NCBI GenBank assembly: GCA_000467715.1
Contig: AJFK01000673.1
Location: 1 to 20,666 of the forward strand
Direction: 5' to 3'
Length of the DNA: 20,666 nucleotides
Source: Hysterium pulicare CBS 123377
Lineage: Eukaryota > Ascomycota > Dothideomycetes > Hysteriales > Hysteriaceae
Below are positions 1-19,700 of the stretch, one piece after another (positions within the stretch are counted from its first letter, which is position 1; each line of letters opens with the position of its first letter). The position numbers and the translations under genes were made by a program. Under the pieces are notes generated by a model. It was not told where the DNA came from, made no database searches, and saw only the letters and a list, made by a program, of their open reading frames with translations.

Positions 1-3000
1 CCCCCCCCCTCCCCCGCCTCATCCATCTCCACATCAGCGACACAAAACGTATCCCCCTCCCACCCTCGCTCATCCACCTTTCCATCTTCCCCTCTCAATC
101 CCCCCAGCGCCATTCTCCTCGAATCCAGCATTCGACTCGGTACGCCAGCAGGCCCAACAGCAGCAGCTTCAGCTCCGCGCCTTCTCCGCTGCTCTTCTTC
201 CTGTGCTTTACTTTCTTCTTCTTCTGTACTTCTTGCGGAGGCGGCCTCAGCCAAGGCGCGCCGAGCCTCGCGCTCGCGCCGCCGATCCATGATCATCTGC
301 GGTGTTAGAATGCCAGCAGGCGAAGGCTGCGAAACGATAGGGACTACTGTTGTTGTAGCAAACTGGCGCGCGCCGTGGCTATTTACAATTAAACCCTTGG
401 GTGGGGGTGGAAAGGGCGGAGCGGGAGGCCGCGTCGTGTAGTGCGCGTTATGTTGTTGCTGGCTGGGATTCTGGCCCCGGCTGATGTTGCTGGTGTATTG
501 TGGAGGAGGTAAGGGCTGTGATGGAGCCCCGAGAGCATTTGGAGTGGCTATATTGACTGGTTCCACCGGTTTGCTGGTTTCAAGCTTGAGAACAGTGGGT
601 CTGCGCATGGATGTGGTTGTTCTAGGAGAAGCTGTCGTGGGTGGAGGAGGGCCAAGCTGGGTATTTTTCTTCAAAGATGCGAAGAGAGCTTCTCTCTCCG
701 TCTTTTGCTCCGCGGTCTCGTCGCTCTTGGCCTTATCTAGAGCCTCAGCATCTCGTTCGGCACGGCGCATTCCCTCCTCGGATTCCTTTTTCTTTTTGGC
801 CTGGTATGCCCGCTCTTGCTCCTCTTCCAAGCGCGCCGTTTCTTCCATTTCGGCAATTATTCGTTCTTCTTGGTTACGCCGGAGGACTCCATCGGCTTCT
901 GTATTGGGTGATAAAGTCCATTCTAGGCCTGGAAAACTAGTCGCCCTCATAGCAGGTTCATAGTCTTCTTCCGTCAACAACTCAAATACTGGGCGTTGCG
1001 CACTCCCTCTCTTGTCCCTTTCCCACTCAGAAGGCCCGGCACTTGCCCTTTCGTTCCCAACACTCCTCAAACTGGGAAAAGTGGGAAAAGACTCGTCGGT
1101 GGTAATTGTTGGCTCTAATGGTGGCTCCGGAGCATTTGGGAGAGTGGCAGATCCATAACCGGGGAATCGGAGAGTTGTCTTCGTCTTTGCAGCTTTAGTC
1201 TTCTTCCCTCCCTTCTCTGCCGCCTTCTCTTCCTTCATCCTCTCGTTCGCTAGTCTGTTCAACTCGCTGCCAACTCTCTTAGATTGATCTTCTGACAGGC
1301 TTTCGGTAATCTCTTTCACGAGTTCTTCAAGGAATGGGATATAATCAGGCTTCCTCGCATTTTGAGAGATGGCCAGAGAGAGTGCCTGAGCAGTCTGCAT
1401 GAATTCATCTTCGGCCTCAGGTTTGAAGATGCCGAGTGTAGAGATATCGACATTTTCGGTGATCTGAGAAGGACTTGGGGCGCTGCAACTTCTGCTGGAA
1501 GGTATCGACCTGGATCTTGACCTCATCCTCGACCTTGCCCTTGACCTTGATAAAGTTTGCTCCGCACGGGTATCAGCTAATTTATATCTGTGATCGGCTG
1601 GACCATCGGAGTCCCGGCTACGCGAACGTCGGTGATGGCTGCTCGCAACCAGGTCGGCATAGATAGGGTCACCACCGTACTCTATAAGGGCTGTATCACT
1701 GGTCATGCTATGTCTTCTACCAGAGGGCACCGACCTAGATCTTGACCTTGATCTTGACAAACTTCGCTCCATCAGTTTACTCGCTTGATCTTTCTTAGCC
1801 TTGCGTTTCTCATATAATCCAGCGAGAGCAGCTTGTCCGAGGCCAGCAGTAGCGATAGGTACTCCCTGTCGAATGCGGCTTCGACTGCGTGACTTTTCCT
1901 TCCGACTTCGAGACTTACTTCGAGCATGTTCGATAAGACCTGCAGTTGCCGCAGAGGCGAGACCGGCTTGTGCAACTCGACGGCGCCGGTAATCTGCTTG
2001 ATATCGATGCATGCTGCTCGATCTACCTCGTTCAATGCTGGTGATTGTAGAGACGGATGACCTTCTTCGCCTGGACCAACTCCTTCGATCTTCAATAAGA
2101 GTGTTTGTGTTGTTCTTCCAATGGCTTGCAGCATAAGCAAGAGCTCCCAGGCCAGCGATCGATGCAGGTTTGGCGGATTTCTTAGATCTAGATGAAGACC
2201 TGCTTCGGCGATGTCTTCGCCCTCTGCCTCTAGGAGTTGACTCGACCTCCTCTGTTGATAAGCTAGCACCTAAAGCACCGTAACCGACCGTTGGTATAGG
2301 TTGACCTGAACTATTGACCTGTTTCATTCTATGAGCTCTGATTAGCTCTGCAGCCGCAAGGCCACCAACGACACCTTCAGCGAGGTGCCGTCGGTGATGA
2401 GGGCCAGAGTCTCGGCCCCAGGTATCGATAGCATCGTCGTCGCTATAATAATCCCTATCATCTGGCTGATATGGGAACTCTTTGACCTTGCGCTCGTAGT
2501 AGTAGTCTTCTTCACGGCGCGGTTCCCTAGGAGCAACCGGCCGGTCTTCCGAAACTGCTTTCCCTTCAATAATCCCGTACTGTGGTTCTTCGCGTGCTGG
2601 TGGAGTGCTGACAGGGGTGTGCGCGGTTTCTCTGTCAATGCCATCATCCCCTTCCCCACCCTTATTCACCTCCATCGCAACGACTTCTTCGGCTGTCAAG
2701 AAACGGCCACCAGGTCCACGAGGTCGTCGCACCCCGTGATTATGTCTGGATTCATGAAGGTAAGGCTTTCGGTCTTTGGAAGTGAGATGAAGTCCAAGCT
2801 TCTGACGTGCCACGCGTCTTTTCAATATCCGATGAAACTGTTTCGCGTTTACGTAGAGAGGAGCTTCCTCTGCAGCCCCGGCGACGTCGTCGAACGGCTT
2901 GTCTTGTGGGATTTTGTAGCGTTTGACTGTAGTAGAACTTCGCTCCCTAGCGCGAGAAGCTATGGTATCCCAATCTCGTTCTCGCTCACGCTCCCCAAAT

Positions 3001-6000
3001 GTGCTTGACGCGACTACTGGAATGCGTGGCGCGGATTGTTCGACCTCACTGATCGTAGAACCCCCTACCATATCGGGAGACATCGGGTGGTGAGGTAAGT
3101 GATGATCTAGTCCCGAATCGGCCTTCATGGAAGTTTGCAACTCTTTGCCGTGAGGATCAGCTGGTGTTGAAAATCTCTCTTCGTCTGCAAGGTCCGTAAT
3201 AGAAGTGCTGGACTCAAAGCTATAAAAAATATGCGACTTTCGTGAAGGATCAAGATCCAATTTTTGCGCTTCCGAACCGAATTGCAGAGCAGATCTCTCT
3301 ACGGCATAACTGCCTGGCATGACTACAGCCTCCTCTTGCTCTACAAGCCTCCTCATGAAATTCGCACTGCGATGAGGGGTAGTAGTAACCTTGTGGGTGG
3401 CTGGGGTGATTCCTCCTATAAGACGCTGACGTGGAGATGAAGGTTCAGCAGACTCGTAGACAAACGTCTCGCCAGAGCCCGATGAGCTTCCTTCGTCTAC
3501 GGCACTGGCTACTTTTGCTTCAAAGACATCTGCTTTACTTGTAGATATTCCCATGTTTAATCCAGGAGATTTCTTGACCTTTTTCTTGTCTTTCTTGCCT
3601 CGTTTGGATGGCGGTGGCTCAATCGGCTGCTCGGAAGGTGGCAATGGCCACATGCGCATGGTGATCGACCAGCCGGGCTCAATGACTGCTTCCCAGACTT
3701 GAGGGAGTATAATCATTTGATCGGGCCCAAATAGATCATACTTTCCCCCTTTGATATGTTCTCCGATGATATCGATATGTATAAAGGCCTGATTAATCAA
3801 CCCTTCCATAGCCTGCAAGGTTTTAGCACGTTTCCCACTGGGTATGCACTTTTGATGGGAGTGACCAAGTCGATGAATGAAGATGGAAAGCGAGACGATC
3901 ATACTTACAGCCCAAGTCTTACAGCCTTGATACGGGAAGGTGAATGTCCTTCCTATAGCATCTTTGAAGCGAATAGGCGCTTCCCTCACCGGTATAGTGG
4001 AAATGGAAGCAAAATCTGTCAATTCCGTCTTCAATTTCGGCTCCTCCGTAGCATTTGTAGCGTTCTCTCTTTGTGCCTTGAGATTAGCCAGTTTTGCCTT
4101 CTTTTCTTCTATCTCCCTCGTCCGCATGAATTCCTCGGGAGAGTCTGCAGTGGAGGCACTATCATCCTTGACGGTAATCCTATTGATCCTGGCCGTCGCA
4201 ATTTTCTTCTTCCCACCCCTCTTCTTCGCAATTTTCTTCTTTCCGTCGACTCTGTAGAAAGGGTTAGCCAATGTTCAAACTACCGATGATTGAAATAGAA
4301 GTGGCGGAACCATACCTATCAACACCATCCTGCGTTAAACCTAGCGTTTGGTTCTGCAGCACAAGCTCCTCATTGATCTGCACACCCGTCTCCTTCATCC
4401 TCCCAACCACCTTCTCCAGATCCATAACGTCTTCACCTTGCGCTTGCATGATCTGTTTCTGCAACTGCAATACACGCTCATCCTCAGGAACAATCTCGCA
4501 TCGGCCGACCACTTTTCCAGAGTCATCGTGGATCAAGCCCTCGCCGTTAGTCTTGCGACCAGCCAGGTCTTGGAGGTTACCTTCGATAAGGCGGCCAACA
4601 GGAACACCGTCAGTAACGAGGTTTCCTTGTTTGTTGAGCTGAAGTCCATTAAGAGTAGAGAGCTTGTTAGGTATTTCTTCCGCTTCTTCAAGAGGCTCGG
4701 CGTGACCCATAACAGTACCATAATTATCGAGAATGTCTCCATACTCATCAACTGCCATACCCACAAGGCGCTTAGCGTTGCCTTCAACAATATGTCCGAT
4801 GATGTTGTCATCCTCGTCCGCGATTTTGCCATCTGGTACAACGCGGAGACCTTGAAGGCCGACGAATGGGCCTTCAGCCACACTCTCCCTAACGTTGATG
4901 GAGGGGGTGGAAGATCTTGGACGCCAGCCGTACGGCGTCCAGTTGGCGACATTGGTGACGTTGAAATGTGAAGGATCCCTAGGGCCCTTTTCGCGCGCTG
5001 GCATCTTTCGTTTGGATCTGCCGGAAATATACACTGGTGCAGGCGAAGCACTACTCCAGTCATTGATATTCGGCATAGTTTGTTTGGTGCGGAGTTTCGG
5101 TTCCTTGTCTCGTTGCTCTTCGTCTTCTTCGGTCTTCAAACTCCGGAGAGGGCTCTCTTCGGAGATTTGGGTGGTTATTTTCTCTAAATCAGATAGTGGC
5201 TGGAGAACAGTTTCTGCTTTCTTAGTCTCGGTCTGCGTAGTTGTCCGCTGAAGTTTCAGTGTCTCGTCTTCGGTGGTTGTCCGTGACAACTTCGAGCTGC
5301 CAAGTATGACAGTATCCAGATGGCCGCGGGCGCGAAAATACGACCCGATAAGAGTTTGCTCGTGATCGGCGGTATTCTTCACCTCTGATTGAGAGTTGAG
5401 AGCTTTTTGGAGTAGTTCAATGTCATCCAATAGGCTTCTAATGTGATGAACACAAGTTTCCAAACTCTTAGTCGTGATGGATGAACCAATGTTGGAGGCG
5501 GCAGCGAACATGCCGATTTCATTCACTGAACTTGAATCGATACTCCGTGGTTCTTGTTCTTGTGCTTCGTTCTCATCACTGGTTTCGTCAATCATTGATC
5601 GAGCGCTCTGGCATTGGACTACGTACTTGACGACGGTGCTATCTTCACTCATGCTATAGTTCCTCAAGGACTCCTCATAGCGCTTGGTAGACTCTTTCTT
5701 GGTTTGAATCAATGCTTTGATCTGCTCGCGTTGAGCAGCGGCTTCTTCCTTGTCGAATTTCCTGATTTCTTGCGTGAGCGCATGCAGAGAAGTTCAACAT
5801 CAGACAGACTTACTGGGATGCGATTTGATGGGCATGAGTTAAGACCTGCATCAACAATTGTAATGTGCTTTTAAGCCTATCAATATTCGTCCGTAGTAGC
5901 TCTAGCTTAGGTTCTCGAAACGGCATCATGAATTTGCTAAGCGTATTCTTCTTCGACTTCTTGAGTGCAGCATCCATCTCGGTGAAGACATTGGAGCACT

Positions 6001-6303
6001 CTCGCACCGTTTGATCAGCGGTCTTGACGGCATTTTTGGAGAGGATGGCTGATGTCTGCAAATTGTTATCATCCGCTCGACCACGGCTGCTGTCGCATTC
6101 CCGCCAACACTCACGGTATCCTGCTTAAAGATGTGCCCTAGCTCATCAATTACAAAAGCAGTCAACTCGACTTCTTTCGCAATATCCTTCACTCGTCTGT
6201 CGGCCGATGACACCGACTCCGCATAGTGATACAGAGTCTGGGAGAGCTTGAGCCCAGCTCCGGCGACTTGGATGACAGATGCGATCAGGCCTATCTCGGC
6301 CAT
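1..6303 (-). CDS. Giant mosaic protein: fungal N-domain, LEA repeats, ubiquitin-like, NF-YA, DUF3824 and eIF3j-like regions (3' end outside window)
   Basis: Proposed exons are 6303-6115, 6055-5814, 5761-4316, 4251-3909 and 3812-1. All introns are GT-AG (59, 52, 64 and 96 nt) and phases agree at every junction, giving 2010 codons with no stop before the left edge. The ATG at 6303 has A at -3 and G at +4. Domains in order: residues 1-90 resemble the N-terminal domain of fungal STAND/NLR-type proteins (starts MAEIGLIASVIQVAGAGLKL); charged, partly coiled linker; LEA-like DUF3659 repeats about 443-575; fungal ubiquitin-like domain about 717-798; NF-YA/HAP2 domain 1055-1111; DUF3824-type Ala/Gly plus Arg-Ser repeats about 1210-1530; eIF3j-like segment 1533-1621; then charged coiled-coil and Pro-rich low-complexity sequence. 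The last exon is 3.8 kb without an intron or stop. No function is established; a nuclear or scaffold role is inference. Two or more merged genes cannot be excluded, but the unbroken frame argues against it. Confidence 0.88.
1170..1436 (-). other. eIF3j (HCR1)-like C-terminal segment inside the giant protein
   Basis: Residues 1533-1621 follow the conserved second half of eukaryotic initiation factor 3 subunit j. LGIFKPEAEDEF corresponds to the family's FNP-x-(5)-F start. ARKPDYIPFLEELVKEI corresponds to the P-x-Y-x-x-FLE-x-LV block. The following SLSEDQSKRVGSELNRLANE and MKEEKAAEKGGKKTKAAKTK match the S-L-x-x-x-x-x-K-x-x-x-x-L-x-x-L-x-x-E and K-x-EEKA-x-KGGKK-x-KAAKTK ending of fungal HCR1 proteins. 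In eIF3j this half contributes to 40S/eIF3 binding. The first, acidic half of eIF3j is not seen here. The frame is the same as the NF-YA and DUF3824 regions. Confidence 0.87.
1505..1551 (-). repeat. Imperfect GACCTT/GATCTT hexamer repeat coding Arg-Ser dipeptides (copy 1)
   Basis: A run of GACCTTGATCTT-like hexamers (plus-strand view) encodes alternating Arg-Ser/Ala/Met in the minus-strand gene. The same unit recurs at 1731-1758. Codons vary (AGG, AGA, TCA, TCC, TCG), so selection on the RS protein repeat plus slippage is likelier than a recent pure microsatellite. Confidence 0.7.
1731..1758 (-). repeat. Imperfect hexamer repeat coding Arg-Ser dipeptides (copy 2)
   Basis: This is a second block of the same GACCTAGATCTTGACCTT-type hexamers, coding SRSRSRSRS in the giant protein about 180 bases from the first block. 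Confidence 0.7.
2700..2870 (-). other. NF-YA / HAP2 (CBF-B) CCAAT-binding domain inside the giant protein
   Basis: Residues 1055-1111 carry both signature parts of NF-YA. The subunit-association helix reads LYVNAKQFHRILKRRVARQK, the motif that binds the HAP3/HAP5 (NF-YB/NF-YC) dimer. The DNA-binding part contains YLHESRHNH, RRPRGPGGRF and LTAEEV, including the Arg/His residues that contact CCAAT in NF-YA. The linker between them is GLHLTSKDRKP, which looks about two residues shorter than in fungal HapB proteins as I remember them, and the usual Ala-Met after SRHNH is Gly-Val. The frame was checked against the exon start at 3812 and is continuous on both sides, so this is not a separate ORF. 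Confidence 0.93.
3639..3980 (-). other. Fungal ubiquitin-like domain (ULD-type) segment, split by an intron
   Basis: Residues about 717-798 read as the fungal ubiquitin-like domain often seen in NLR-linked and DUF3824 proteins. A beta-strand motif RFKDAIGRTFTFPY leads to CKTW, then helix MEGLINQAFIH, then GGKYDLFGPD, and the closing strand ILPQVWEAVIEPGW before MRMWPLP. The intron 3813-3908 (GTAAGT donor, TTGCAG acceptor) falls between CKTWA and AMEGL, where splicing joins the domain in phase 0. The assignment is by motif order recalled from the family. Confidence 0.8.
4468..4866 (-). repeat. LEA-like (DUF3659) repeats within the giant protein
   Basis: About 130 residues (443-575) contain repeated units with the pattern G-x-x-V/L-x-x-x-G-x-I/L, then D-x-x-x-x-x-(I/V)-G-x-(I/L)-(V/I)-E-G-(N/D), then (L/V)-(V/A)-G. 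Seen examples are GHIVEGNAKRLVG, GRLIEGNLQDLAG and GKVVGRCEIVPEDE. This is the pattern of fungal 'LEA domain' proteins (DUF3659), which are hydrophilic and have no proven molecular function. The repeats are diverged and are followed by a predicted helical stretch and a Lys-rich tract coded across the 4252-4315 intron. Confidence 0.8.
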
Positions 6304-6986
6304 GCTGCCACATCATCTATTCCACGGAAGAAGACATTTCGTCAAAGCGTTACCGCGTTCATCACTTCGTCGCCCTCGAGGGTGTGGTTGTTTTTTCATG
6401 TTCGTAGGATTGCAGATTGCGGGCTGAGGGCGGCCTCCATGCGCTGCGCCTCGATCCACGATGCCCAGATTCCTTAGGCATCAGAACTCTCGGCATGCAG
6501 GTATCATCACCATGTCTGCAGACTGGACATTACGGCAGCCTTCATTCATCATTGGGAGAGCAGAATGCTGTTTTGCCTTCTATTCGCACAATTCGGTCGA
6601 GTTCGGCCTGCGCCACAGACGGGACGGGCAGCTAGATTCAGTATAGCGGGTTCAAGCACCTTTACCCTTTACAAGCCCTTCATTTAGCCCAAGACAGCGA
6701 AGGGCCAATCAACCAGGCCTAGCTGCAGAGCGATGCGTTCTTCTTCTCCACAACGAGACTATCGATTATCTTGTAACAGCAAGCCATCGTTTGCTGATTG
6801 GTGCGGATGGCACCAGCCACAGTCAAACGCCACAACGCTCATCCGACATGTGGATGACATCACACCCAAGGCCCTGTTTATGGCAAGATCCTTCAGCTTA
6901 TCCCTCAGCCTTCTCGTCCACCATCTATACACCAATTGGTTCTTATACTGAACTCTCTCCTGCAATATACTTATCTTCTTCCCCCA
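6304..6986. promoter_or_regulatory. Divergent (head-to-head) promoter with CCAAT boxes
   Basis: This 683-base gap separates the start of the minus-strand giant gene from the plus-strand gene at 6987. CCAAT or its complement ATTGG occurs at 6551-6555 (ATTGG), 6705-6709 (CCAAT), 6797-6801 (ATTGG) and in the palindrome CCAATTGG at 6932-6939. Roughly one or two are expected by chance in this length on both strands. A CRE/AP-1-like ATGACATCA lies near 6854-6862, and a pyrimidine-rich stretch near 6900-6925 precedes the plus-strand gene. No clear TATA box was seen. The region is expected to drive both genes; which box serves which gene cannot be told. Confidence 0.6.
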
Positions 6987-11968: not shown

Positions 11969-13242
11969 ATGGCGCTAAGATACTTTTCAAAACTATTCCA
12001 CCGATCATGGACATTTTCGCTACCCTCATTTGGTGTAGCTCGCTACATTGATATCTTGAGAGGTTGTCGCGTATCGTTCGGATTTTGGGTTCAATTCACC
12101 GTTGACAAGGTTGAGGTACAGTGGATTGAGGTTAGTATACCATCCTGCTCAGTTTAGATAGTTTATCCCCCTTTCCAATTCTCATCACCACGTGTCTTTA
12201 ACAGGCGTGCCGTGAAACCTTCCTATATGAGCTTCTAGAGGAACATCATTCCCGATTGCTGTTGCTCCGACCCGGTGCGAAGAACGACCCTTTACAAGGG
12301 AAAATCATCACATATAAAAGACACTGGCGACTAGACAAGGAACTATCGTACGAAGCATTATCGTATTGTTGGGGCAATCCTGCACAAACCGGCCAGCTAC
12401 TTATCGAACGAGGCGATAGCGAAATCGCCCAAATCGGAATCACTGCAAATCTCACAGAAGCTCTTTATCACCTACGTCTTAGCGATCGCACAAGGACTCT
12501 TTGGATAGACGCAATCTGCATCAATCAGTATGACCTCGATGAACGAAACCGTCAGGTCTCGGTCATGTCAAACATCTATTCGTCGGCGTCGAATGTTATA
12601 GTTTGGCTGGGGCCGGCTAGTGAGCATAGTATCCATGGAATGGATGTCCTTGACTATCTCGTGAAAGTGCCAGACCGCCATCCCACACCACCGTACACAA
12701 CCAAGCCACCTACCGTAGTTCAGGCGGGTGTCAGCGACATCCTCTCCAGGCCCTGGTTTGAAAGGATGTGGGTAGTTCAAGAAGTCGCAATGGCCCGAGT
12801 CGTGACTTTTGTATGTGGAAGCCATCAAGTCTCGTGGTGCGGAGTTGATGTTGTCGGCGTTCAGAGAATCAAAAAGATGATGCAATTCGCCGTGCTCTCA
12901 CCGTTGTGGGCTCAAGCAGGGCTTACAAAGGTAATTCTAGATCCTATCTACGATCTTCTGGATATGCAGATCGGCCAGCAGCTCGATAAACAGCATGGTT
13001 CGAGCAGCCGACGCTCTGCTGATTTGTTGGATATTATGTATGGCATGCGTCATAAGCTTGCAACGGATGCTCGCGACAACATTTTCGCATTGAGTAATGT
13101 TGCGGTTTATAGTCACTCGGGAGAGCCCTTTGAGGTGGACTATTCGCTGACACTTGAGGAGAGTTATGAAAAGCTGTGGGACGAATTTGAACTATGGCAT
13201 GATTATCTTCCAACATCTTGGAGTCACTCAAGGGGAGAGTAA
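11969..13242 (+). CDS. HET-domain (heterokaryon incompatibility) protein, apparently truncated
   Basis: Main exon 12205-13242 is preceded by a TTAACAG acceptor, with an in-frame TAA inside the proposed intron. A first exon 11969-12130 joined by a GTTAGT donor keeps phase and supplies an ATG, but its 54 residues are not HET-like, so the start is uncertain. HET motifs are clear: RLLLLRPG, YEALSYCWG, NLTEALYHLR, RTLWIDAICINQ, ER-x-x-QV-x-x-M-x-x-IY, VIVWLGPAS, then RPWFERMWVVQEV and a DARDNIFALSNVA block. The domain acts in fungal non-self recognition and can trigger cell death in known members; no such activity can be claimed here. Full members are usually 500-700 aa. This one stops about 399 aa after the proposed start, shortly after the block equivalent to DPRDKVYALLGLA, and no C-terminal remainder was found downstream. 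Confidence 0.85.
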
Positions 13243-13761
13243 ATCCGGGTCATTCGAAAAAGTAAGCTGACGAAAGGTCTGCTAGTGCCGGACCTGTGAA
13301 CTCGTGTAAGATGAAATATCTAGGGGATCGTCTAAAATTATGAAAAAGAATGGATCATGAAAGAAGCTATGCAAGGCTTTCTAGGGTTTATCAAGTGTTT
13401 TGGAGAATATGAGAACGTGGCGAGGACTTCGCGGCCATTATCGTCCTTCTGCTGAGAAAGTAGACCACGCCCACAGGGGGGTGTGATAAATCGTTTTCAG
13501 AGGATAGGTCGGCGCCTGCTATCTTATTTTCTACCTGCCTGCAAAGCCGGATCAACCTCGGTACAAGGCAATAAAGCAACTTGTAATCCCTAAGATTATT
13601 AATAAAGAAGCAAATAGAATAGGATCTATCTAGGCTTGTGCGGCTTTGGAAGTCCGTAGTATGACGAATAAGGGCATCAGTTGTGGCCTTGAGAGCTAAC
13701 CAGGGAGGTGCCGATCCCAAAGTAGGACTCACTGCTCCTCGCTATGTCTCTTACAAACCAC

Positions 13762-16716: not shown

Positions 16717-19700
16717 CTAAAGGTCAAAGCAACCATCCGTGCTCTCACAACTCAACGCACGGGGGGTAAATTCATTTCCCTCGACAGACGACGGTGGTGT
16801 GAACTCTGAACCTGGTACTGGTGATGTGTTGTAGCTTCGGGGCGTACTTAACGAGTCAGATTTCTGGGTAAATCTTCCTTCGTGCATGGCTATGTCGAAG
16901 TCCGAAAGCTGGCCAGTGGTCTTGAGCATTTTCGGGGAAGTTCCTCGAGTAGATGTGGAGTCCCAGGGCGTCGAAGTTGAGGAAATTACGCATGTGAACA
17001 CGTCCAGCTCGTAGTCATAGTCCATGTAACCATAAGTAGCAAGCTTATGGCCCAGCCAAAGAACTCTGTCCACACGCATCTCCACTGTGGCTTTGCGTTC
17101 AAGGTATCTTTCTTCTTCCTCATCTTCTTTAAACCAACTCTCAGGGAAGTAGTGTTGCGCCCAAACCTGTCCACGCAGTAGATAATCTTCAGGCAATGGG
17201 CGAGCACTAGATTTGGCTGGGTACGGGAATGTCGGGAATATCGTTGGATCAATGTCATTTTCGGATTTCTGGAAGGCCCCAAGTTCGTTGAGATAACGGC
17301 ACAGTGATTCCCATGGGACGGCATCGAAAATGAAGTGTTGATCAAACAGTGACGATGCTGACAGCATGTCGCTGAATCTCTGTGCTTCCGCAAGGGCAAC
17401 GAGAAACGCTATAATGACATGGACATGAGGTAAAACATTCAAGTCTGTTTGCCGTGAAAGGACTATCTCGAGTGTTTTGAATAATAAAGCACATCGTGGC
17501 ATTAGACTTTCGATGTCGGAAAGACAAGATAGAGTTGGCGTCCTCAATTCAGCAAGAAGGTGTGATTCGGCAGCAGTCGAAGGATCCGACAGGCTTGCCA
17601 GATGATTTCCTAGGTCAAAGAAGTGCCGCAGTGAATTGCTGTTGCCATAATCGAAGAGAGAAGCTATGTTTGCGATTGCGATATGCACACCCTGTTCCGT
17701 CCATCTCTTCGAGACCCTTGCGATATAGGAGTCGAGGAGCTCTAAGAATCCATTCATCGACTGATCAACTTCCGAGTATTTGTGGTGAAATAACGAGGCG
17801 TGTGTCTTGACAAAAGAAACCACAAGTTCTTCCTGGCGATAGACACTATTCTCCTGGGCCAGATTAAATAGTGTCATGATAGACTCTCGCGTAGAGAGGA
17901 ACGGTTTGGCCGACAACAGGGACCGAGTGTAAAAGAATAGTTGTTGAAGGGCGTTTGGTCGAGACAGAATAGCCACGTGATGGTAAAGTCGGCCCACCGA
18001 CGGGTTTTTATCTGCTGCTCTGGTATACCATGATCGGGCGACACCGGCCCATGTTTCACGATCTCGTATATCCTCATCCTCAATCGCCATCCGATATCGA
18101 GCTAGATCCCCAAGGCACTCTATCCAAGTATCCTCAAAAGCTGGCACAGTCTCATACAGTAGCGCTATTAGCTGATAGGCTAGATAGATGAATGCGAGCA
18201 TGTAATCCAAGCTATCAGGTAGGTGACGGCGTAAGAGCTCTAAAAAGGAGTGAATACCATGTTTCCACATGCGGGCTGGCATAGAGTACTTGGACGCCAA
18301 CCGACGTAACGCCGGGGATGCTCCAGGGTGTTGAGAAGCCAAGAAGAAATCGTGATGTTCATGTAGTAACGTGCGGTGCAGTGCGACCAAAGCCTGCCAG
18401 TGAGCACTATCCAATTTCGAATTTGTGACGCTGGATGCTTGGGCTCTATCCACATGGATACACTTGGTCTCAACCATAGTCAATCCGACGTATATTGACT
18501 TTACTTCGGAAGCGAGCTGCTCCTGCGAAATCGGGCGTGAATCTGGCTGGAGTAAGAGCCCCGGATAGCGCGAATCAAAGACTTGAATCTGAGTAGCCGG
18601 GCGTGTTTCGGGCTGTGAAGGTAATGATTGGGAGCTATCACCCGTAACTGCCCTACTCCACTTATCCAATGTCCCCCGGACTGGGGCTTTCAACAAGTCA
18701 CCTCCTGCCTCCCTCTTTCCCAATCGTGACTGGGGTTGCCTAAGGAATTGACCACCAGTAGCAGAAGAGTTGGGCAAACGAGATTGACTGGGGAATTCGC
18801 AAACTGGTTGAGGGATATGGCTGTTGGGACCCGGCATCTCCGAACTTCCATAAGCTCCTGCTTCTCCGTTGCTGGCCTTAGGAGAAGTCGACAGTGTCTC
18901 ATTTACAGGCGTAGTACTCTCTGGCGTTAATTTGGTGCCGTTGGTTGTCGAGGTGTCAGCAAAGGGTTCATGAAGACTGTCGGGAGTCAACGTAATAACT
19001 GCACGAGAGATACTGCGTTGGAAGGGCTCGATGCTGTTTTGCTGTTCTCGACTCGCTGTTGAGGGTGTAGTCCAGGTGATCCAAGGCGGAGCATCTGGGA
19101 CAGTCAGTAGGAATGAGACATAGTGGTCAAATGACAATCACCTTCAAGGTTGGGCTCGCGAAGCTCTATGCCGAACCGCTTTCTGTGAGCACAAATTTTG
19201 TTTCGAGAAACGGGGAATCCACGGTAGCTGAGATCTGGGAGCACACCATAGCGCGTCTCAATGTGATTTGAGACGAGGACCATGTAATCCATATCGGGCT
19301 TCTTGATATTTTTAGTAGGAAGCCGGCCATCTTCCTGCCACTGCGTGATTTTCGTTTTCAATTGTTTTCGGCTTGAGATTGTCAGTGCATAGAGATACGT
19401 ACTAGCGGCATAAGTTACTAACCTCGGACTAAAGCTGTGTTCTCGCGGCAAGATTTTCAACATTTCAGCCAGCTTCTTCGAAGCGAAAAGCTGCAATATC
19501 ACCGGGAAATATTGTTCCCAGACCTCAGCATCAACCTTGTCGGCTTTCTGGGTTGTACGGAAGTTTGGGCCGGTCTGATAAGGCACATGAATTGCCGCAC
19601 CCGCTTGAGAGTCCACCAGAGGAATGTTTCCAGTTCTTTCTTGGAAGGATATTGGTTGGCCATAGGGATCGGAGTATACGTTATCATATTCTTGGCTAGG

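Follow-up and report, generated by a model that had tools for sequence, protein, structure and literature searches.

How does a CCAAT-binding domain of the HAP2/NF-YA type come to lie inside a very large protein? HAP2/NF-YA proteins are a few hundred residues long, and the helix in their conserved domain binds HapC and HapE. The window that we analyzed (20,666 nucleotides of Hysterium pulicare CBS 123377) is the entire contig C457, a 20.7 kb piece of a 37.2 Mb assembly in 596 contigs. A preliminary description of this DNA placed a complete HAP2/NF-YA domain at 2700..2870, at residues 1055-1111 of a protein of more than 2010 residues, in a single open frame. All of this agrees with what we found. 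On the minus strand, the frame 4274-3 is free of stops for 1424 codons and runs past the end of the contig. A gene model that begins with a start codon at 6303 (-) has five exons and four introns and encodes at least 2010 amino acids without a stop; in this protein, the HAP2 core starts at residue 1058. (The splice sites and the four introns of this model were picked by eye, and the C-terminus of the gene lies beyond the contig edge.)

The HAP2 domain itself is clear. PF02045 matches at 2700-2861 (-) with 89.6 bits in a profile search of the genome and 82.4 bits in hmmscan (the cut-off is 27), and the best match to the domain in PDB is HapB of A. nidulans (4g91; phmmer E = 1.4e-27). A stretch of 22 residues (PLYV...RQKL) is identical to HapB, so the binding helix is present as described. 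The DNA-binding part is also present, with changes that had not been mentioned: the linker is 2 residues shorter than HapB's, and in the DNA-sensing part, HNHAM has become HNHGV (A to G, M to V), while GPGGRF is kept. In the passages of PMC7266990 available to us, the sensor helix and anchor of HapB read the CCAAT box in published structures. Given the two changes in the sensor part and the shorter linker, the piece might have kept its subunit binding with altered DNA binding. It is plausible that it could join or poison the CCAAT-binding complex.

Does this locus encode a working HAP2 fusion, which would join the complex and link it to whatever the N-terminal domains sense? PF02045 is complete and above its curated cut-off, as in NF-YA/HAP2/HapB proteins, and most of the HapB core is kept. 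But HAP2 accounts for just 98 of at least 2010 residues, its linker and sensor part are altered as above, and the genome has a normal HAP2: the PF02045 search of the genome found two places, the window and an ordinary HAP2 gene on C547. (The C547 gene may lack part of its N-terminus, as its open frame starts right where the contig does.) This is the standalone gene that the preliminary description suggested looking for, and with these points in mind, we consider a functional HAP2 fusion to be very unlikely.

HAP2 is not the only domain of this kind in the protein. In the product of the 1424-codon frame, hmmscan also found ULD_2 (3.9e-28), eIF3j (PF08597, 2.5e-24) and Vac7 (3.9e-18), and Pfam matched two DUF3659 stretches upstream. 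The eIF3j and Vac7 domains share the frame with HAP2 and had been overlooked. Of the neighbors that had been named, the ubiquitin-like region is real (ULD_2), but the DUF3824 region is not, as PF12868 has no match there at E up to 1. The stretch that had been called DUF3824 corresponds to residues 200-604 of an open reading frame (ORF) on C78, whose own DUF3824 match is at residues 599-652. Because Pfam showed ULD_2, eIF3j, Vac7 and DUF3659 together with HAP2, we compared the gene to the rest of its own genome.

Using tblastn and DNA searches, we found that 13 successive stretches of the gene, which cover 1338 of the 2010 residues, match 12 loci of the same genome (Table 1). Along the gene, the matching loci are C361, C436 (DUF3659), C317 (PX-domain), C14 (ULD_2), C110 (Vac7), C356, C78 (DUF3824), C547 (HAP2), C78 again, C377 (eIF3j), C592, C353 (eIF4G) and C236. 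With about 13 matched pieces, of which HAP2 is one, the picture of a single odd fusion was too narrow. We conclude from these comparisons that the gene is very probably an old patchwork with its frame preserved: a common head followed by coding stretches that have relatives at 12 or more other loci. In what follows we call these loci donors.

Table 1. Predicted features of the patchwork gene, in order from its start codon, and of a second gene on another contig. Residues (aa) are numbered along the gene model.
Feature	Position	Strand	Remarks
Predicted patchwork gene	1..6303	-	predicted exons 6303-6115, 6055-5814, 5761-4316, 4251-3909, 3812-1; open at contig end
Head resembling HeLo-like, aa 1-143	5816..6303	-	PF17111, 20.8 bits vs. 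cut-off 27.2; intron 6114-6056 inside
Second head part, aa 144-339	5176..5815	-	no donor found; weak likeness to C488, 27%, E = 5e-4
C361 ORF piece, aa 340-420	4933..5175	-	86% DNA identity
C436 DUF3659 gene piece, aa 432-571	4480..4899	-	82% DNA identity; Pfam
C317 PX-domain gene piece, aa 573-638	4215..4476	-	80% DNA identity; donor intron at 4315-4252
ULD_2 domain, relative C14, aa 715-802	3627..3986	-	intron 3908-3813 inside
C110 Vac7 piece, aa 830-863	3444..3545	-	72% DNA identity
C356 ORF piece, aa 872-928	3249..3419	-	79% DNA identity
First C78 DUF3824 gene piece, aa 1000-1049	2886..3035	-	own-genome tblastn and DNA searches
HAP2 piece, donor C547, aa 1050-1147	2592..2885	-	85% DNA identity; PF02045 at 2700-2861
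Second C78 piece, RS-rich, aa 1147-1509	1506..2594	-	74-82% DNA identity
eIF3j piece, relative C377, aa 1526-1621	1170..1457	-	PF08597, 2.5e-24
C592 ORF piece, aa 1654-1706	915..1073	-	72% DNA identity
C353 eIF4G piece, aa 1717-1833	534..884	-	64% DNA identity
C236 ORF piece, aa 1880-1975	108..395	-	76% DNA identity
Second predicted patchwork gene, behind a related head	C488 about 3036-6838	-	bZIP and other host pieces

Might such matches be a coincidence of low complexity? We ruled this out in three ways. First, blastn against the 13 donor stretches gave DNA identities of 64-86% and E-values between 2.8e-5 and 2.3e-177. Second, DNA searches of the whole genome, which are blind to the frame, recovered 8 of the 12 donor loci; tblastn with the 1424-residue part had found 11 places besides itself. 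Third, as a control, a Q/P-rich low-complexity ORF of 1771 amino acids on C592 matches just itself, the patchwork gene, and one further place, on C325. (That place, C325:26387-26569, lies in an open frame of 202 amino acids that is 48% identical to residues 688-749 of the C592 ORF, and it is possibly part of another patchwork.) As another control, we looked at the other 13.5 kb of the window, where the DNA matches listed gave no sign of a patchwork: of these 39 matches, 37 are to a dispersed 200-bp repeat and the other 2 to relatives of a single ORF.

Not all of the donors have known functions. At E up to 0.01, Pfam gave no match for the donor ORFs on C361, C356, C592 and C236, and the C356 ORF, which we take to resemble Def1/UBAP2L, has no match in PDB at E up to 0.1. 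The C317 gene may be a Vam7-like PX-SNARE gene (PX, 46.7 bits), but the C317 piece matches syntaxin 8 only weakly (E = 0.42), and by Pfam neither the piece nor the donor's end has a SNARE domain.

The pieces are in the sense and frame of their donors. All 17 blastn HSPs run in the same direction as the donor's ORF, and codon phase agrees for 3537 of 3621 aligned coding bases (98%); in these counts, overlapping HSPs (for instance, to other DUF3659 repeats) were counted each time, and the donor frames are the long ORFs that we chose. Of the 84 bases that are out of phase, 34 are in C317 after its intron, where an arbitrary frame was used (by eye, they are in phase), and the other 50 are in gapped alignments to C14, C78, C592 and C353. 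The probability that 13 pieces would agree in sense and phase by chance is (1/6)^13, although the open frame was our starting point.

Some of the joins are tight, namely C436/C317, C78/HAP2 and HAP2/C78. Around HAP2, residues 109-207 of the HAP2 ORF replace residues 57-199 of the C78 ORF, and the C78 pieces on both flanks are co-linear. As the HAP2 stretch adjoins another gene's sequence on both sides, in frame, a separate HAP2 gene that is hidden here is unlikely. The C317 piece retains the donor's intron (47 of 64 bases are identical, and the splice sites are kept), and its likeness to the donor stops about five codons ahead of the donor's in-frame stop, as judged by eye. The kept intron implies that this piece was copied at the DNA level, which rules out capture from spliced mRNA for the C317 piece, and with it the idea that every piece came that way. 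(Pieces within single donor ORFs are uninformative about this.) Exon shuffling via introns is not supported either, as by their coordinates the donor-to-donor joins sit within predicted exons. We also inspected nine joins by eye for microhomology, with no statistic: C436/C317 has a short shared stretch, and C78/HAP2 and HAP2/C78 have a few bases at most.

If the gene was built from pieces of DNA, were they all captured at once? Synonymous divergence (dS) from the donors is uneven: it is 0.30 for C361 (0.13-0.50), 0.37 for HAP2 (0.22-0.57), and 0.76 for the long C78 piece (0.60-0.96). It is saturated for ULD_2 and Vac7, and for C317, eIF3j and C592 it has no usable upper bound. The uneven dS fits stepwise capture, in which HAP2 would have arrived later than the C78 sequence that it interrupts, although the donors' rates may not be the same, or the donors may be diverged paralogues of the true sources.

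The frame has stayed open over this time. Exon 5 has 1270 codons without a stop. When we simulated neutral change of exon 5, it stayed free of stops in 30, 1, 0 and 0 of 500 simulations each at 2, 5, 10 and 15% change. Also, dN/dS is below 0.5 (bootstrap P < 0.05) for 10 of the 14 rows, including 3 with saturated dS. In the other 4 rows (C361, C356, the first C78 piece and C236), a dN/dS of 0.5 was not rejected. (The 14 rows omit C317b, a chance alignment of 16 residues with 4 of 16 identical, and five segments were trimmed to their matching core.) Low dN/dS could partly reflect constraint before capture. Still, selection has probably preserved the frame, and we infer that the gene is likely to be translated and maintained as a protein.

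We considered two explanations without a protein function. The gene could be an artefact of assembly or contamination, with coding stretches from a related species misjoined. Contig C457 is one of 596 and is 20.7 kb long, and the gene runs up to its edge. However, random joins would not preserve sense and phase across 13 pieces, divergence varies widely between pieces, and there is another such gene, on a contig of 66 kb (see below). That the divergence is old and uneven, with the frame free of stops, argues against misassembly as well as against fresh junk, and we think an artefact is highly improbable.

Alternatively, a transposon (Pack-type, Helitron-like or transduplicating) might have captured the fragments passively. 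In captures by maize Helitrons and plant transposons, sense and frame are not known to be preserved throughout. In the patchwork, there is no stop, the sense is the same for every HSP, and nearly all bases are in phase. Also, our own-genome DNA searches found no second copy of the assembled gene, and the window contains no repeats of 24 bp or more, though one end of the gene is off the contig. On the other side, the range of dS from 0.30 to saturation fits stepwise capture by a transposon too, and such captures are known in plants and, in the passages of PMC3538342 available to us, are reported in a fungus. Passive capture strikes us as unlikely, if less so than an artefact. In that fungus, Pyrenophora tritici-repentis, transduplication likewise moved coding sequence that is not from transposons and gave an in-frame chimera, but it involves multicopy elements with terminal inverted repeats, whereas the patchwork occurs once, has 12 donor loci, and shows no sign of an element (PMC3538342, in part). 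Stepwise capture by maize Helitrons (PMC3288121) and capture by plant transposons (PMC13317346) likewise bring several gene fragments into one unit, in the parts of these papers that we drew on.

Is the patchwork gene unique? Using its first 433 residues, we found one relative of the head in the genome (at E up to 0.001), on C488, with 55 of 148 residues identical to the window's head (37%). Behind the C488 head is a frame of 1104 codons with its own stop, on a 66 kb contig. Its pieces match C188, C146, C188, C146, C473, C54 and C511 (two places), so this second predicted gene has other pieces behind a related head. Pieces from C188 and C146 alternate, and their order is the reverse of the donor's. 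C146 (77%) and C188 (75-78%) are backed up by DNA matches whose phase agrees with that of the protein matches; the other pieces were identified by tblastn alone. The first C188 piece includes a bZIP_2 domain (24 bits vs. a cut-off of 22.3). C27, C344 and C487 match only the bZIP region of the C488 gene, and they are probably other bZIP genes.

What might the head do? The window's head falls below the cut-off for PF17111, as does a match to Imm5 downstream for its own family. The head on C488 is at the threshold of 27.2 bits: it scores 28.4 bits in hmmscan, and in the genome search 27.0, or 27.7 with neighbors. PF17111 is named HeLo-like in the fungal NLR literature (PMC9815663), and this class is tied to membrane-targeting cell death (PMC12881547), in the available portions of these papers. 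Among the Pfam matches in either part of the gene, up to the contig end, there is no NACHT or NB-ARC, so we did not file the gene as an NLR. In the PF17111 search of the genome, 25 places matched, 17 of them over the cut-off, and the window's head was absent from the list. It was probably missed because introns split it, and such heads may be undercounted.

Our preferred but tentative proposal, which we find possible rather than probable, is that the copied modules are baits or competitors behind a head of the cell-death type. The head would be a membrane-acting module for cell death or signaling, of the kind that fungal NLRs have. The copied modules (the ubiquitin-like domain, the HAP2 core, eIF3j, and the pieces of eIF4G, Vac7 and the PX gene) would bind the partners of the real proteins. 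If an attacker's effector or a non-self allele engaged one bait, the head would change. HAP2 would then be one bait and not a working subunit of a transcription factor. This reading derives from the class of the head, from the modules carried, and from two precedents: copies of host domains in fungal NLRs and the interaction of an NLR with a t-SNARE. That the head's nearest relative, C488, is also a patchwork counts for it. Counting against it are the head's score below the PF17111 cut-off, the lack of a NACHT or NB-ARC match in the gene, the lack of a SNARE match by Pfam in the C317 piece or its donor, and the 4 rows in which a dN/dS of 0.5 was not rejected; also, the sources of several pieces contain no known domain, and these pieces fit the role of bait less well.

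A selected patchwork might instead have no immune role, but serve as a scaffold, or compete dominantly for HapC/HapE, translation factors and other partners by titrating them, with the head being an ordinary helical domain. The 22 residues that are identical to HapB, the recognizable eIF3j and ULD_2 domains, and the weakness of the PF17111 match are all consistent with this. On its own, it leaves unexplained why the related head on C488 has other, unrelated host pieces, and we regard it as rather doubtful. Returning to baits, we have similar doubts about a broader conjecture, of a family of many-bait proteins in which a HeLo-like death head is joined to a tail of housekeeping modules, added stepwise and in frame, so that one protein could watch many targets. 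If true, this would be an NLR-free, multi-decoy system for immunity or allorecognition.

The precedents for baits are partial, as judged from the passages available to us. The fungal NLRs with a CHK-2-type kinase as a putative integrated decoy (PMC12258605) combine copies of host domains with immune-type N-terminal domains, including the HeLo-like class, as the patchwork would if its head is of that type. Unlike the patchwork, in which no nucleotide-binding domain was found and which has about 13 pieces, they have a nucleotide-binding domain and one extra domain (in the case of the kinase). In PLP-1/SEC-9 (PMC12881547), an NLR interacts with a t-SNARE, so a death-type protein is tied to a core cellular protein, as would be the case for the patchwork, but the partner is a separate protein and no captured fragments are described, whereas the patchwork carries the fragments itself. 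In the open-access literature that we searched, as far as those texts were available, we found no in-frame genes made from a dozen unrelated genes. A scan of IMG/VR for relatives gave 4 stretches that fit a pattern, of which none was confirmed.

If the patchwork is real and conserved, it illustrates how essential proteins can supply the working parts for a large new protein in a genome. It would also be a testable fungal counterpart of the integrated decoys of plants, with many baits per protein. More practically, extra matches to HAP2, eIF3j, Vac7 or eIF4G in a genome may stem from such patchworks.

We noted three other features in the rest of the window. An ORF with a HET domain (PF06985, 4.1e-34) lies at 12202-13242 (+), about 6 kb from the patchwork gene, which we view as weak context. 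A dispersed element at 13461-13686, about 200 bp long, has at least 37 matches in the genome, at 71-78% identity; the Pfam match of an overlapping ORF is below the cut-off. Finally, 17941-18576 lies inside an ORF at 16717-19137 (-) that has an Est1-type DNA/RNA-binding match and two relatives in the same genome, on C40 and C38, at 72-76% DNA identity.
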